The translations under genes and the position numbers were made by a program. From positions 1 through 49,003 of the forward strand of contig SLAV01000168.1 in assembly GCA_007126655.1 (NCBI GenBank): a DNA stretch of 49,003 bases. The letters run 5' to 3'. The notes beneath the pieces were generated by a model, which searched no databases, was not told the DNA's origin, and saw only the letters and a program-made list of their open reading frames with translations. Each line of letters starts with the position of its first letter. Positions within the stretch are counted from its first letter, which is position 1. Of this stretch, positions 28,472 to 37,014 are shown in pieces. Source of the DNA: Haloferula sp. (GTDB lineage: Bacteria; Verrucomicrobiota; Verrucomicrobiia; Verrucomicrobiales; Akkermansiaceae).

Positions 28472-31400
28472 GGGTTTTGCAGGTAAAGGGCGAAGCCGTT
28501 CAGGAGCAGGAAGTTGTCGGCACCGTCCGACTCGGTGGACCGGAGTTCAACGACCAGCGGCGAGCCGCCGTCGTGGGTGAATTCGAATTCCAATCGCGGA
28601 ATCTGGGTGTCGCTGATGAAGGTGGTGCCGATTCCGGAGCTGCCGAGGGACGTTCCCTGCACCGAACCCATGAGTTCGCCGCCGATGCGGGCCTCGATGG
28701 TGTTGGGCGTGGTGGGGCTCGCACCTTGGGCGAAGCCGAGCGGCCCGGTGGTGAGACTGTCGAGGTGCCACGAGCGGAAGATGTAGTCACCTGCGGCAAG
28801 ATTGTCGATTTCGAGGTCGATGGCCCCGCTGCGGGTGGCGATGAAATCGGATGCCAGGAAGGACAGCGAGGTTTCGCCGCCCGGGATGGCGCGGTTGTCG
28901 TCGCCGTTGCCGCCGCGGAATTCAAATTTCACGCCATCCGGCTGTGTGACCGTCACCTGCCGCGGACCGAAGGACTTGGTGTACGACGCCATGTTGTCCG
29001 CCTGGGTTGCGGATCCGCCGACGATCCGGAACAACGCCTGGCTGGGAGCGCCGAAGAAGTCATTGCGGTTGAAGTCGATGGCGAGCAAAGGCGGGCCGAG
29101 GCGTTCGAAGGGAGGCGGAGGGGGCGGAGGGGGCGCGTCAGTGAGGGTGAGCGTGATGTCGGAAAACTGGATCTGGTCGGCCTGCAGTTGGCTGGTGGAT
29201 AAGAACGAGATCCGGTTGAAAGTGGAGGTCGGGATCGTGCTGTCGAGAACGCTGTTGCTGGCGAAGACGACGGAATCCGCCGCGCGGATGATGTGGGCGT
29301 CGATCCGCATGCCGTCGGCGACACGCGTGATGGATAGCAGGAAGTCATAGGTGCCGTCGTTGAGGGCGGTGCCGGGAGCTGCGGACGATTGCAACTGGCT
29401 CGCCGAACCGCTGGCGGTTGAAAAGTAGGTTGTATCCGCGACAAGACGCTTCCACAAGCCACCGCCGGTCGTGTCGGCTCCGGCGGTGTGAATGTAGCCG
29501 AGCCAGCCGTTGTTGTCGCTGCTGCCCCCGGTATCGAACAAGCCGATGCGGAACCCGTTGGCGGATGAGTCAACTCCGACAAGCGTGGCCGAACCGGTGA
29601 GGGTCGCTTTTTGTCCAACTTCGTCGAGGCTCACCTCGGGGATCGCGGCGTATATCGACTTGCGGGCGGCGTTGCCCGGCGAGCCGTCGCCCATGGTCGG
29701 TGAATCAGTCCCGGCATTGCCCAGCACCATGGTGCTCCCCGGCGCATCGCGATCCACCCAGCCGGTGACCGGGCCGGTGACCCATGCATAGCCGACACCG
29801 TCATACATCGTGCGGCTGGTTCCGCTGGCACCGTCGATCCGCATGTCAACGAAAACGTCGATATCCGAACCTCCGGACACCGTGACATGGCCGAGGTACA
29901 CACCGAACATCGCATTTCTATCGTCGTTGCGTATCAGATTGACGCTGTTCGCGAAGGTCAGTTCCGCCGCATTGGTGACGTTGGCGGTGGTCGCACCGGG
30001 GACCGCGGGCTGTCCTGGAGAACTGTAGGTGGCGAGGTCGCCGGAGGTGAGGCCTGTGGCGATCGACCAGTTCTGGGATGTGCTTACCACCTGATCCCAG
30101 TAGAACGTCCAGATCTCGTAGGTGCCATCGGCGAGGCCGCTGATGCGGGTGGTCAGTTCGGGGATGTCTTCCGCACTGCCATCGGGCAGGGCTTGGAATA
30201 TGGTGTCCCCGTTGTAATCGGCGAGCGCACGATTGCTCCATCCGGTGTCTGAGGAAGAGCCGTCGGTATTTGCGATCCAACTTGTATCCCCTTGGCTGCC
30301 TCCGGTGGCGAAGGTGTTGCCGCCGGGGCCCGCGACCGCATCGACGTAGGTGATCTGCCCGGCGGATGGAGGTGGCGGCGGCTCATGGGTGTCCGCCAGG
30401 ACGCGCCCGGTGGCGGTTGTGATTTGGGAAAACGCGGCCTGGCTTGCGTTGAGGCCATCCGTCATCAGGAAGGCCACCCGGTTGTATTCGTATTTCGCGA
30501 GCGGCTGGTTGAGGAGGTTTTGGGCGGCATGGTGGGATCCACTGCCGTCGGTAAAGCGGACGGCAATGTCGAGATTGCCGCCATTGCGGGCGATCATCAG
30601 GGAGAACTCGAGGGGCGTGTCGGCGGGCAGCGTGGCGGCGGCTCCAGGGATCGGGCCGAGAGGGGTTCCGGCCGCGCTCTCGAAGGGATGATCCGAGCCC
30701 GAGCCGTCGCCTGCCGAAATTTCGGTGTCGGCGGTGGCAGGCGCTTCCGCCCGGATGCCGGCGTAGCCGGTGCCAACGCCCGGTGTCACCGGATCGTCAC
30801 CATGGAAGAGGCCGATGCGGAAACCGCCGCCGGTCAGCGGTGCGTCGAGGGTGACGGTGCCGGTCAGGCGGAGGAAATCGCCGTCGTCGAGGGCAAGCGG
30901 GTCGATGCCCGCCGCGATGGCATCGGAGCTGGCACCGGTGGTGACGGGTGAGGCGGTGGATTCGCTGCCGCCGGAAAATCCCGCGTCGCCGGATATGGTG
31001 GTCCAACCGCTCACTGGAGTGGGCGCTTCGTGCGGATCGTCGAGGTGGCCGAGCGAGACGAGGAATTCATCCATCGCGAAAACAGTGGCTCGATAGCCGT
31101 AGCGGATTTCGCCGCTGCTGGACGGAGCGAAGTTGAAGAAGCCGTGCGCCTGCTCCTGATAGAGATGGAGGTCGGAACGGACGCCCTCCGCTTCCATCAG
31201 GGCCTTGAAGTTTTTCGCAGTGGCGACCGGAACATGCACGTCGTCGGTTCCGAAGAAGACGATGGCGGGCGGAGTGGTCGCGGAGATGTTGTGCAGCGGG
31301 GAAATCTCCTCCCAATAGTCGCTCACTGTATTGTGGCCATAGCCGCCGGGGCCGTTGTCATAGACCGGATTGAACAGGACAAGGGCATCGGGGCGAGAGC

Positions 31401-32024: not shown

Positions 32025-32732
32025 TCAGTGCCGACGGCGGCGCAGGAGAAGCAGAGCGCCCAGACTTCCTGCCAAAACGGTGGAAGGCTCGGGTATCAGT
32101 GCGTATCCGACACCGTCATACAACGTGCGGCTGGTTCCGCTGGCACCGTCGATCAGCATGTCAACGAAAACGTCGATATCCGAACCTCCGGATACCGTGA
32201 CTTGGCCGAGATACACGCCGAACATTTGGTTGTTACCGTTGTTGCGCGTGACATTGGGGTTGTTCGCGAAGCTCAGATCCGCCGCATTGGTGACGTTGAC
32301 GGTGGTCGCACCGGGGACCGCTGGCTGGCCCGGAGAGCTGTAGGTGGTGAGGTCGCCGGAGGTGAGGCCTGTGGCGATCGACCAGTTCTGGTCTGTGCTA
32401 ACCACCTGATCCCAGTAGAACGTCCAGATTTCGTAGGTGCCATCGGCGAGGCCGCTGATGCGGGTGGTCAGTTCGGGGATGTTTTCCGCGCTGCCATCGG
32501 GCAGGGCTTGGAATATGGTGTCCCCGTTGTAATCGGCGAGCGCACGATTGCTCCATCCGGTGTCTGAAGAGCCGTCGGTATTTGCGATCCAACTTGTATC
32601 CCCCTGGCTGCCTCCGGTGGCGAAGGTGTTGCCGCCGGCGCCCTCAAGCGCATCGACGTAGGTAATGGTAAAGGCGGCGTGGGCGGGAATCGCGATCAGG
32701 GCGGAGCTGAGGAGGATTGCAATGGTTTTCAT
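32025..32732 (-). CDS. PEP-CTERM sorted exported protein
   Basis: A 235-residue protein with a signal peptide (MKTIAILLSSALIAIPAHA), a single ectodomain of about 185 residues and a classic C-terminal sorting signal: PEPST (about residue 213), a hydrophobic stretch (VLAGSLGALLLL) and RRRRH. Proteins with this tail are recognised, cleaved and probably attached at the surface by an exosortase; no exosortase gene is seen in the window. The ectodomain (TYVDALEGAGGNTFATGG, GLADGTYEIWTFYWDQVV, GVYLGQVTVSGGSDIDVFVD) looks like a beta-sandwich. The same domain is embedded in the neighbouring esterase. A promoter candidate lies 25 bases upstream and a terminator follows, so it may be transcribed alone as well as with the esterase and sulfatase. 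Confidence 0.9.
   Translation of the reverse strand: MKTIAILLSSALIAIPAHAAFTITYVDALEGAGGNTFATGGSQGDTSWIANTDGSSDTGWSNRALADYNGDTIFQALPDGSAENIPELTTRISGLADGTYEIWTFYWDQVVSTDQNWSIATGLTSGDLTTYSSPGQPAVPGATTVNVTNAADLSFANNPNVTRNNGNNQMFGVYLGQVTVSGGSDIDVFVDMLIDGASGTSRTLYDGVGYALIPEPSTVLAGSLGALLLLRRRRH
32102..32664 (-). repeat. Copy 2 of the ~565-bp duplicated domain (PEP-CTERM gene)
   Basis: Covers nearly the whole ectodomain of the PEP-CTERM protein but neither its signal peptide nor its PEP-CTERM tail. It is in direct orientation with copy 1, about 1.75 kb away. Long blocks are identical, for example across the TDGSS-DTGWSNRALADYNGD region. Confidence 0.9.
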
Positions 32733-34976: not shown

Positions 34977-35022
34977 GCCCGGATTCAAGCACGCAAACCC
35001 CGCCTGGCAAGCCGCAGCATCC

Positions 35023-35102
35023 GTAGGCGCGGTCGTGAGACCGCGACAGCCCGCACCCGCCAACCAACTCCACCCCCACCCCATTCTCACGAACGGGCCT
35101 AC
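35023..35102. repeat. REPIN-like unit beside the RAYT 3' end
   Basis: An 80-base unit: GTAGGCGCGGTCGTGAGACC at the left, a C-rich spacer (CCAACCAACTCCACCCCCACC), and TTCTCACGAACGGGCCTAC at the right, which is an inverted REP of the same type. The RAYT stop codon TAG (35101-35099) lies inside the right-hand REP. Confidence 0.88.
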
Positions 35103-35665
35103 GCCCCATCATTCCCATTCGCGCGTTTCGTCGTTTCGCGGTTGTGGATTTTCCAGAACACCGGCCAGAAGGCACCGAACCCGGCACGCGGAATCTCAGG
35201 ATAGCCCGGCAGCACCGACCCCCGGTAGGGCCAGTCCACCCAATCCCCCACCAGCCCCGCGCGCTGCGGATTGCGGAAGATGTAGATCACCGTGTCCTCG
35301 AACGCGTCCGGGCGGCGTTCGCTTTCGCGCAGCACGTGATCGTATGCCTGGGGTTGCAGGCACACCCCACGCTCCCGCAGCGTCTCGTTCCAGTGCCTGC
35401 GGAAAAATTTTGATGCCACAAGTTGGTCCGAGTCGTCGCCCAGGCCCATCCACAGGAAATGCGCGTGATCCGGCATCAGGCAATAACCCGGGCAGTGAAG
35501 GGGGTAACGCGACATCGTGTGCAGCAGCAGTTCTCGCAAGCGGTGGTGCATTGTTTCGTCAAGCCATCCCCGCGCGCGGTCGCGCATGCCCATCGTCCAG
35601 TGAACCCAGGCCCGACCCCGGTAGGCCGCCTTCCCGAGACGCGGCAAATGACCGGGGCGTTTCAT
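35099..35665 (-). CDS. REP-associated tyrosine transposase (RAYT, TnpA_REP)
   Basis: A 188-residue Y1-type HUH nuclease of the RAYT family, domesticated relatives of IS200/IS605 transposases that act on single-stranded REP hairpins. The HUH motif is in YCLMPDHAHFLWMG (His67 and His69). The helix with the likely nucleophile reads TVIYIFRNPQRAGLV (Tyr128), matching the conserved YIxxNPxRAGLV of the family. AYDHVLRESE and the WPYRGS near the C-terminus are also typical. RAYT genes are usually single-copy and flanked by the REPs they recognise, as here: one REPIN-like unit overlaps the 3' end and a tandem array lies upstream. The start is ATG 35665. Activity and target site are inferred from the family. 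Confidence 0.92.
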   Translation of the reverse strand: MKRPGHLPRLGKAAYRGRAWVHWTMGMRDRARGWLDETMHHRLRELLLHTMSRYPLHCPGYCLMPDHAHFLWMGLGDDSDQLVASKFFRRHWNETLRERGVCLQPQAYDHVLRESERRPDAFEDTVIYIFRNPQRAGLVGDWVDWPYRGSVLPGYPEIPRAGFGAFWPVFWKIHNRETTKRANGNDGA

Positions 35666-35709
35666 GAAGCTCTGTTAGCCAGCGCCATGCCTGAATGCAA
35701 GAAATGATT

Positions 35710-35771
35710 CCGCGACGGTTCGTCCCGCCAGCAAACCCCACCCGCAACCCCGTTCTCACGAACGGGCCTGC
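35710..35771. repeat. REPIN-like unit A, left REP truncated
   Basis: Begins at CCGCGACGG, so the left hairpin is missing except for its last bases, then continues with the same C-rich spacer and a full right REP (GTTCTCACGAACGGGCCTGC, with one change at the end). It is the unit closest to the RAYT start. The 45 bases between it and ATG 35665 hold nothing recognisable. Confidence 0.75.
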
Positions 35772-35777
35772 GAACAC

Positions 35778-35858
35778 GTAGGTGCGGTCGTGAGACCGCG
35801 GCAGCCCGCACCCGCCAACCACCTCCACCCCCACCCCCGTTCTCACGAACGGGCCTAC
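35778..35858. repeat. REPIN-like unit B
   Basis: Complete 81-base unit: GTAGGTGCGGTCGTGAGACC on the left and GTTCTCACGAACGGGCCTAC on the right. It follows unit A after the six-base linker GAACAC. Confidence 0.88.
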
Positions 35859-35864
35859 GAGCAC

Positions 35865-35943
35865 GTAGGCGCGGTCGTGAGACCGCGACGGTCCGCCCCG
35901 CCAACCAACTCCACCCCCACCACGTTCTCACGAACGGGCCTAC
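35865..35943. repeat. REPIN-like unit C
   Basis: Complete 79-base unit with GTAGGCGCGGTCGTGAGACC left and GTTCTCACGAACGGGCCTAC right. Linker GAGCAC separates it from unit B. Confidence 0.88.
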
Positions 35944-35949
35944 GAGCAC

Positions 35950-36031
35950 GTAGGCGCGGTCGTGAGACCGCGACGGCCCGCACCCCCGCCAAGCAACTCC
36001 ACCCCCACCCCGTTCTCACGAACGGGCCTAC
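35950..36031. repeat. REPIN-like unit D
   Basis: Complete 82-base unit; the spacer is slightly longer and carries CCAAGCAACTCC in place of CCAACCAACTCC. Linker GAGCAC separates it from unit C. Confidence 0.88.
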
Positions 36032-36036
36032 GAACA

Positions 36037-36075
36037 CTTAGCCGCGGTCGTAAGACATCGTCAGCCCGCAACACC
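36037..36075. repeat. Decayed REP half (unit E)
   Basis: CTTAGCCGCGGTCGTAAGAC follows unit D after linker GAACA and keeps the left REP outline with several changes (GTAG lost, loop GTAA, right stem partly broken), then the spacer start CAGCCCGCAACAC. No right REP follows, and the next 70 bases up to the isomerase-like gene show nothing further. Confidence 0.65.
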
Positions 36076-36144: not shown

Positions 36145-37014
36145 ATGAAAATCTCCTTCCACACCGACGCTTTCAACACCTCGTTCGTCTCCTTCGACCG
36201 CGCGCTGGAGTGGGCGCGGGACAACGACGTGCACTGGATCGAATGCGGACTCATCGACGGCGTGAGCTGGCTGCACGGCCTCGGCTACCAGCCCCACATC
36301 GCCATGTACCAGGATCCGCTCATGCTGCGCAAACACATGGAGTCCTTCGGCGTGCGGTTCTCACAGGTGGACGCCGCCTTTCCGCTGTCCGGCCCCGACG
36401 GTCCGGTTTACGGACTGCCCTACGTCCTCAAGGCGATCCCGTGGGCGAAGCACGCCGGTTGCGCGCATGTCGCCACCACCGACGGACTCCACCGTCCCGA
36501 GGGCATCACCGATGAGGAGGCCATGGCCCTGATGCAGAAGCAATACCGCCGCATCATCGAGGTTGCCGAAGCCTACGAGGTCACCGTGACCATCGAGGTC
36601 CACGGCTACTTCACCACCAAACCCGAATTCCTCGAACGCATGCTCGCGTTTTGCGACAGCCCGTTCCTGCGCCTGAATCTTGACACCGGCAACAGCTTCA
36701 TCGCCGGACAGGATCCGGTGGCATTCTGCAAACAGTTCCGCGACAAGGTCGCGCACGTCCACATCAAGGACGTCAGCGAATCGCTGGCGGCCATCGCCCG
36801 CGGCGGGCAGACGGGCATCGCGCTCTCCCATTGCGCCATCGGCGAGGGGGTGAACGCGGACAACATCAGACAGGTCCTCGCCCACCTCCACGAGGGAGGC
36901 TACACCGGCCACCTCTCGCTCGAGTGCGAGGGCCAGGGCGGCCCGATGCTCACCCAGTCGCTCGAATGGCTGCGCGCCACGCTCGCCGAACTCGGCATCC
37001 CCGAGGAAAAGTGA
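36145..37014 (+). CDS. Sugar phosphate isomerase/epimerase-like TIM barrel protein
   Basis: A 289-residue soluble protein of the xylose isomerase-like TIM barrel (AP endonuclease family 2) superfamily. Conserved segments are visible in order: MKISFHTDAFNT at strand 1, HWIECGLIDG at strand 2, RFSQVDAAF at strand 3, GCAHVATTDGLHRP, VTVTIEVHGYF with the metal-ligand Glu, RLNLDTGNSFIAGQDP with Asp and the following turn, KVAHVHIKDV with the His-x-His pair, and TGHLSLECEGQGGP with the last Glu. The ligand set (Glu, Asp, His, Glu) appears complete, so an active metal-dependent isomerase or epimerase is likely. No signal peptide, so it acts in the cytoplasm. The substrate cannot be told from sequence. 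It is a single gene between the REPIN array and a lipoprotein gene. Confidence 0.85.
   Translation: MKISFHTDAFNTSFVSFDRALEWARDNDVHWIECGLIDGVSWLHGLGYQPHIAMYQDPLMLRKHMESFGVRFSQVDAAFPLSGPDGPVYGLPYVLKAIPWAKHAGCAHVATTDGLHRPEGITDEEAMALMQKQYRRIIEVAEAYEVTVTIEVHGYFTTKPEFLERMLAFCDSPFLRLNLDTGNSFIAGQDPVAFCKQFRDKVAHVHIKDVSESLAAIARGGQTGIALSHCAIGEGVNADNIRQVLAHLHEGGYTGHLSLECEGQGGPMLTQSLEWLRATLAELGIPEEK

Follow-up and report, generated by a model that had tools for sequence, protein, structure and literature searches.

We conclude that the locus at positions 35,023 to 36,075 of the window (the whole 49,003-nt stretch of Haloferula sp. DNA that was analysed) is very probably a REPtron, in which a RAYT gene stands among cognate REPINs that its product would bind, cut, and mobilise. 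The locus is real, well explained, and ordinary in kind. The part surprising to a specialist lies in related genomes, where RAYTs of a sister clade of the window RAYT are embedded in frame in core enzymes and are apparently mobile. If confirmed, these embedded RAYTs are weightier than the window locus.

A RAYT gene flanked by inverted REPs

The locus comprises the following features, in window coordinates.

35023..35102, plus strand: complete REPIN unit overlapping the 3' end of the RAYT gene; its inverted REP, running from 35102 on the minus strand, gives the RAYT stop codon TAG
35099..35665, minus strand: RAYT (REP-associated tyrosine transposase), 188 aa, with HUH motif PDHAH (H67, H69) and Y128 in YIFRNP
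35710..35769, plus strand: degenerate REPIN unit upstream of the RAYT gene, ending in CCTGC instead of CCTAC
35778..35858, plus strand: complete REPIN unit
35865..35943, plus strand: complete REPIN unit
35950..36031, plus strand: complete REPIN unit, with a single-stranded DNA fold of z = -3.08
36037..36063, plus strand: degenerate half unit, CTTAG plus a hairpin with mismatches

The original prediction of a Y1/HUH transposase of the RAYT type at 35099-35665 was confirmed by the minus-strand reading frame of 188 aa, by its motifs, and by a match to PDB entry 4er8 (TnpA-REP; E=1.4e-6, phmmer against PDB). The sole NCBIfam match, REP_Tyr_transpos (NF047646), scored 54 bits (E=1.6e-14), below the curated cut-off of 80. 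The protein contains the Y1 transposase core, consisting of an HUH motif and one Tyr, and H67, H69, and Y128 are invariant among the 22 homologues compared. Y128 aligns with Y of DYIYINP in 4er8; we take it to be the catalytic tyrosine, in agreement with the Y motif in Table 1 of the TnpA-REP survey. A Pfam search with the window RAYT gave no match at 1e-3; among three relatives from its clade, one reached the Y1_Tnp cut-off and a second matched Y1_Tnp below it. AlphaFold models of the window RAYT and one relative had a mean pLDDT of 44 and were too poor for use. Judged by its sequence, the window protein is a divergent, intact-looking RAYT.

Each complete unit consists of two inverted hairpins, both built of GTAGG, a 7-bp stem, and a GTGA loop. 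Arm one reads GTAGG-CGCGGTC-GTGA-GACCGCG (or has TGCGGTC on the 5' side), and arm two reads GTAGG-CCCGTTC-GTGA-GAACGGG. As had been predicted, all four complete units start with GTAG and end with CTAC. The further claim that at least five REPIN-like units bracket the gene stood as to the bracketing, and its count is corrected to four complete units, one degenerate unit, and one half unit. REPs in inverted orientation flank the RAYT gene (units 35023-35102 and 35778-36031), and the window holds eight REPs that match the strict pattern given below. The predicted tandem block upstream of the gene is present as direct repeats at 35724-36071 with a spacing of 85-88 nt, a further copy lies at 35022-35102, and the repeat family around the RAYT runs to about 80-88 nt per repeat. 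The RAYT stop codon does lie within a REP: at 35099-35101 on the minus strand, its TAG makes up the last three letters of the GTAG that opens the inverted REP starting at 35102. When unit 35950-36031 was folded as single-stranded DNA, none of 200 shuffles was equally stable. Elsewhere in the window, an identical 28-nt hairpin-like sequence starts at 30118 and at 32433 on the plus strand, about 2.3 kb apart, and is probably part of a longer duplication.

A dispersed REP family in the source genome

The repeat recurs throughout the source assembly (4.14 Mb in 390 contigs). The strict REP pattern, GTAGN6TCGTGAGA, occurs 96 times, spread over 34 contigs, and the control, the same pattern read backwards, does not occur; a GT(A/G)G head followed by a palindrome is therefore abundant in this genome. 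With the 82-nt unit as BLAST query, 63 places were found at E<=10, 43 of them under 1e-3. The 96 strict REPs comprise 61 distinct 26-mers, and compensatory changes maintain their stems: in the inner part of the stem (five pairs), 458 of 480 cells form a pair, whereas none of 500 shuffles exceeded 325. Eighteen pairs of strict REPs, 70-82 nt long with GTAG outside, form REPINs in the sense of two inverted REPs in one unit. Off-type arms (GAG...) occur in 5 of the 96 strict matches, which may be unrelated to the family. By a custom, rough gene caller applied to 38 stretches that were picked for holding REPs or BLAST matches of the unit, and that are 80% coding, 79 of the 96 REPs lie outside genes.

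A second RAYT gene (C102:5422-5979) is 88% identical to the window RAYT. A single unit lies 3' of this gene and a tandem run of three lies upstream, and its neighbouring genes differ from those of the window. Therefore, the whole layout is present twice in one genome.

REP number and RAYT presence among relatives

We compared 118 genomes including the source, 73 of one genus and 45 of the order, and assigned RAYTs to the window clade by a match over 100 bits. The verrucomicrobial host that had been proposed agrees with the identity of two relatives, a Verrucomicrobia MAG and an Akkermansiaceae MAG. The window RAYT clade is present in 7 of the 73 genus genomes and in 10 of the 45 other genomes of the order. 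Within the genus, all 7 genomes with the clade carry 22-150 strict REPs, whereas 65 of the 66 genomes without it carry 0-4, within the range of 0-4 per genome found for the backward pattern (Fisher p = 5e-9 for 7/7 vs 1/66, in a test that ignores phylogeny). The REP is thus not equally frequent in relatives that lack this RAYT. The two exceptions are G006, of the same genus, with 59 strict REPs, and G089, of the same order, with 37. A 22-sequence profile found no RAYT of the window clade in either genome, only weaker matches to other RAYTs; their REPs are either orphans or have lost their RAYT in an assembly gap. In one genome (contig G069:C263, L107), the RAYT is split over two frames and is apparently frameshifted, and 22 strict REPs persist.

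Among the 10 clade-bearing genomes of the order outside the genus, only G116 is rich in GTGA-type REPs (146), against 0-10 in each of the remaining nine. There, the strict GTGA pattern serves poorly as a marker, because several of these RAYTs have REPs with other loops: GCCA in G095, CCAA or CGCA in G096, and CCCA in G090. Differing loops are part of the reason for the low GTGA counts outside the genus. A TGC-type REP accompanies one RAYT of G068 and one of G063; each of these genomes has two RAYTs, with different REP types. More generally, the REPs that flank standalone relatives of the window RAYT have stems of their own. A scan of 27 RAYT loci gave no convincing REP pair at 8 (L093, L094, L097, L102, L103, L104, L111, and L112). 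A GTAG stop ends 12 of the 22 standalone RAYTs, and the scanner also detects a hairpin in six of these. Other RAYT-like matches (L131, L136, L143, L146, and L147) are accompanied nearby by GTAG hairpins of their own, with different stems, and several RAYT/REP pairs therefore coexist in the same genomes.

Interpretation of the window locus

The mechanism of the window RAYT is likely to resemble that of TnpA-REP, by analogy. When a REPIN becomes single-stranded, for example on the lagging-strand template, each REP would fold into a GTAG-tagged hairpin. The RAYT would bind the tag and the hairpin and, with its HUH site and with Tyr128, would cut DNA close by; a strand excised or copied in this way would then be joined elsewhere. 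The resulting copies would spread through the genome and accumulate in tandem beside the RAYT gene, where slippage may contribute to local tandem growth.

Alternatively, the RAYT could be a domesticated protein that no longer moves REPs, and the adjoining array could have grown as tandem copies recombined or slipped during replication. The units beside the gene do stand in tandem with near-regular spacing (85-88 nt), they have an arm pair in common (CGCGGTC with CCCGTTC), which would be expected of local amplification, and G006 and G089 retain REPs without a RAYT of the clade. However, slippage accounts for the array and not for the dispersal of REPs on 34 contigs, and REP number tracks RAYT presence within the genus. 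We consider a domesticated RAYT unlikely. It is also doubtful, and slightly more so, that the units act at the RNA level, as terminators, mRNA stabilisers, or attenuators, and are kept for their effect on the RAYT gene and on the divergent gene at 36145. Both of these divergent genes have stable hairpins in their leader region, the mRNA could be protected or terminated by the REP at the RAYT stop codon, and such roles of REPs have been hypothesised in other bacteria (PMC3733652). Nevertheless, a role in RNA leaves the GTAG and CTAC ends, the inverted pairing, and the dependence on RAYT presence unexplained. An ordinary IS200/IS605 insertion sequence, which has the Y1/HUH superfamily in common with the window locus and would be in keeping with two gene copies, was rejected as highly improbable, because these two copies are only 88% identical and face many dispersed REPs, and because the best named family is that of the REP-associated transposases (REP_Tyr_transpos).

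We therefore retain the REPtron as the reading of the window locus. It adds a well-resolved REPtron of the Akkermansiaceae with its own REP family (GTAGG, 7-bp stem, and GTGA loop), in a genus that allows RAYT presence, RAYT absence, and REP number to be compared over 73 genomes.

RAYTs embedded in core enzymes

Weak RAYT matches in congeners often lie inside open frames of 850-1450 aa. Translations showed Y1 transposases in frame inside MetH and IspG, and, in single genomes, inside three other proteins.

L141 and L258 (G010): Y1 domain in frame in LeuRS
L152 and L259 (G006): Y1 domain in frame in AlaRS
L150 (G014): Y1 domain in frame in a TPR protein

A strict hairpin scan found no REPs within 900 nt of the ends of the LeuRS and AlaRS inserts, which are therefore classed as in-frame Y1 domains and not as REP-bounded units. 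For the two main hosts, Pfam supports the composite nature of the proteins: one protein matched B12-binding, Met_synt_B12, and Y1_Tnp, and another matched GcpE and Y1_Tnp, all above cut-off.

With an inserted MetH as query, whole-length matches were obtained in 19 of the 118 genomes (L182-L200). Insertion is at a single site in the activation domain (for example, L184, G004:C1:1142714-1145023). Thirty MetH loci comprise 18 with a stop-free insert of 226-256 aa, 7 without an insert, where 5-6 aa occupy the site, and 5 left unparsed. Three of the 19 whole-length matches (G017, G015, and G063) contain one stop, outside the insert. At a strict threshold, a phylum sample of 387 genomes gave two further whole-length MetH matches, in other genera of the same family; the stop in the one that was parsed is the gene's own end. 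Separately, the match to MetH is interrupted around query residue 254, inside a single long open frame, in several genomes (G055:C35, G051:C92, G057:C107, and others, as well as G067:C1:3342155-3342931 and G050:C1:476491-477267), and a second in-frame insertion site is therefore possible.

An inserted IspG gave nearly whole-length, stop-free matches in 24 of the 118 genomes, all in the genus (L212-L235). The inserted IspG of G067 (G067:C1:4122237-4124762) and the empty one of G050 (G050:C1:1760315-1762099) are 98% identical as protein on both sides of the site; in place of the insert, G050 encodes 11 residues around a 20-nt palindrome. In the source genome, the MetH site is empty and the IspG site lies at a contig end. 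Three genomes are single contigs, G004 (MetH inserted), G067 (IspG inserted), and G050 (IspG empty), and an assembly artefact is for this reason unlikely for the embedded RAYTs as a whole. Among the matches listed, G067 has no second, uninserted ispG and G004 no second, uninserted metH; the inserted copy looks like the sole full copy of the enzyme gene.

Both ends were scanned in 28 inserts (18 in MetH and 10 of the 24 in IspG). Of the 56 ends, 55 bear a REP-like hairpin, oriented as expected for an inverted pair, and the two ends of an insert mostly have identical or almost identical stems. Among the tags, 45 are GTGG, 9 are GTAG, and 1 is GCGG; no GTAG at a left end falls in the reading phase in which it would introduce a stop. 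The HUH and Tyr motifs are retained in the insert translations, with the exception of G065, which has ANHVH. In a tree of 50 rows (22 standalone and 28 embedded), the embedded RAYTs make up one side of a branch (support 100); the IspG inserts form one group (93), and the MetH inserts need two changes. On this sequence comparison, the embedded RAYTs are placed as a sister clade of the window RAYT.

Possible movement of embedded RAYTs between species

The 675-nt MetH inserts of G015 and G017 are 100.0% identical, in flanks that are 80.1% (900 nt) and 87.0% (600 nt) identical. The nearest 60 nt of the flanks are 88% and 98% identical, and identity then falls to 72% on the right. Both are draft genomes, and an assembly artefact may account for this identical pair. 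Other pairs show lower dS in the insert than in the host enzyme: for MetH, 0.06 vs 0.55 (G060/G008) and 0.27 vs 0.78 (G004/G060); and for IspG, 0.08 vs 0.38 (G013/G041) and 0.10 vs 0.56 (G053/G058). The converse case is seen in G045 and G008 (L053 and L061), where left flanks are 97% alike and inserts 60% alike. Moreover, the insert is less alike than the host in 137 of 153 MetH pairs and 241 of 253 IspG pairs, and most inserts are therefore old or faster-evolving, with recent exchange in a minority. Insert dN/dS is about 0.04-0.24 in the ten pairs computed, and strong purifying selection persists on the host enzymes.

These comparisons suggest that RAYTs move between species, counter to a purely vertical view, although homologous exchange of short tracts could yield the same pattern without transposition. 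On balance, we favour the interpretation that RAYTs of this bacterial family are mobile units and not just domesticated genes passed on vertically. Sister-clade REP-RAYT-REP units would sit in frame in core enzymes, at fixed sites in MetH and IspG (with Y1 domains also in LeuRS, AlaRS, and a TPR protein), would be translated as an internal domain, and would pass between species at the same site, in an intein-like manner without splicing; the window REPtron would be the free-standing form. Such in-frame units at fixed metH and ispG sites, identical between species with a 13-20% flank difference, make RAYT mobility directly testable, and they raise the question of how a core enzyme works with a transposase inside it.

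Comparison with known systems

RAYT/REP systems are described in Gammaproteobacteria, including E. coli (yafM), Stenotrophomonas, and Pseudomonas (PMC2817692; PMC8266576), and the accepted model is mobilisation by nicking of folded, single-stranded REPs (PMC8266576). The window locus resembles these REPtrons in its Y1/HUH protein, in having its gene flanked by inverted REPs that each combine a GT(A/G)G head with a palindrome, and in its abundant, dispersed REPs and inverted REP pairs. It differs in its 7-bp stem, its GTGA tetraloop, and the single unpaired G after GTAG, and is closer to the short, perfect-palindrome type than to the bulged E. coli type. It differs also in that its genome has two RAYT copies and that its protein sequence falls outside the curated family cut-off. 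The HUH and YIxxNP motifs and REP partners are common to TnpA-REP subclasses 2.2, 2.4, and 2.5 (PMC6006769), and the window combination of DHxH and YIxxNP (YIFRNP) has no exact row in Table 1 of that survey, whose searched text does not name Verrucomicrobia.

GTAG REPs and REPtrons have been known since 2010-2013, with one verrucomicrobium included. This is Opitutus terrae, which is highly enriched in GTAG repeats according to a paper that also describes REPtrons (Di Nocera et al. 2013, PMC3733652). Like those of the window, its repeats are palindromes tagged with GTAG that occur as dimers and clusters in a member of the same phylum, with the TAG of the tag used as stop; indeed, this TAG is reported to be often the stop codon of REP-flanked ORFs in general (PMC3733652). 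Opitutus terrae belongs to a different order from the window host, and the likeness noted here is one of description. The original description of the system as a little-studied lineage is thus fair, yet must be read with these earlier GTAG repeats and REPtrons in mind.

RAYTs have recently been stated to be single-copy, vertically inherited, domesticated genes (PMC8049555), and no earlier report of RAYTs embedded in core enzymes was found among the titles and abstract openings of the open-access literature searched. The embedded RAYTs are intein-like in their fixed sites and apparent spread between species, and unlike inteins in showing no splicing-type ends by eye; splicing is not claimed. 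REPs inserted in frame inside genes are known (PMC3733652; PMC6006769, subclass 2.4), and the embedded RAYTs are like them in being in frame and at tolerant sites. The difference is that the inserted element is a whole transposase gene with REP ends and not a short REP.
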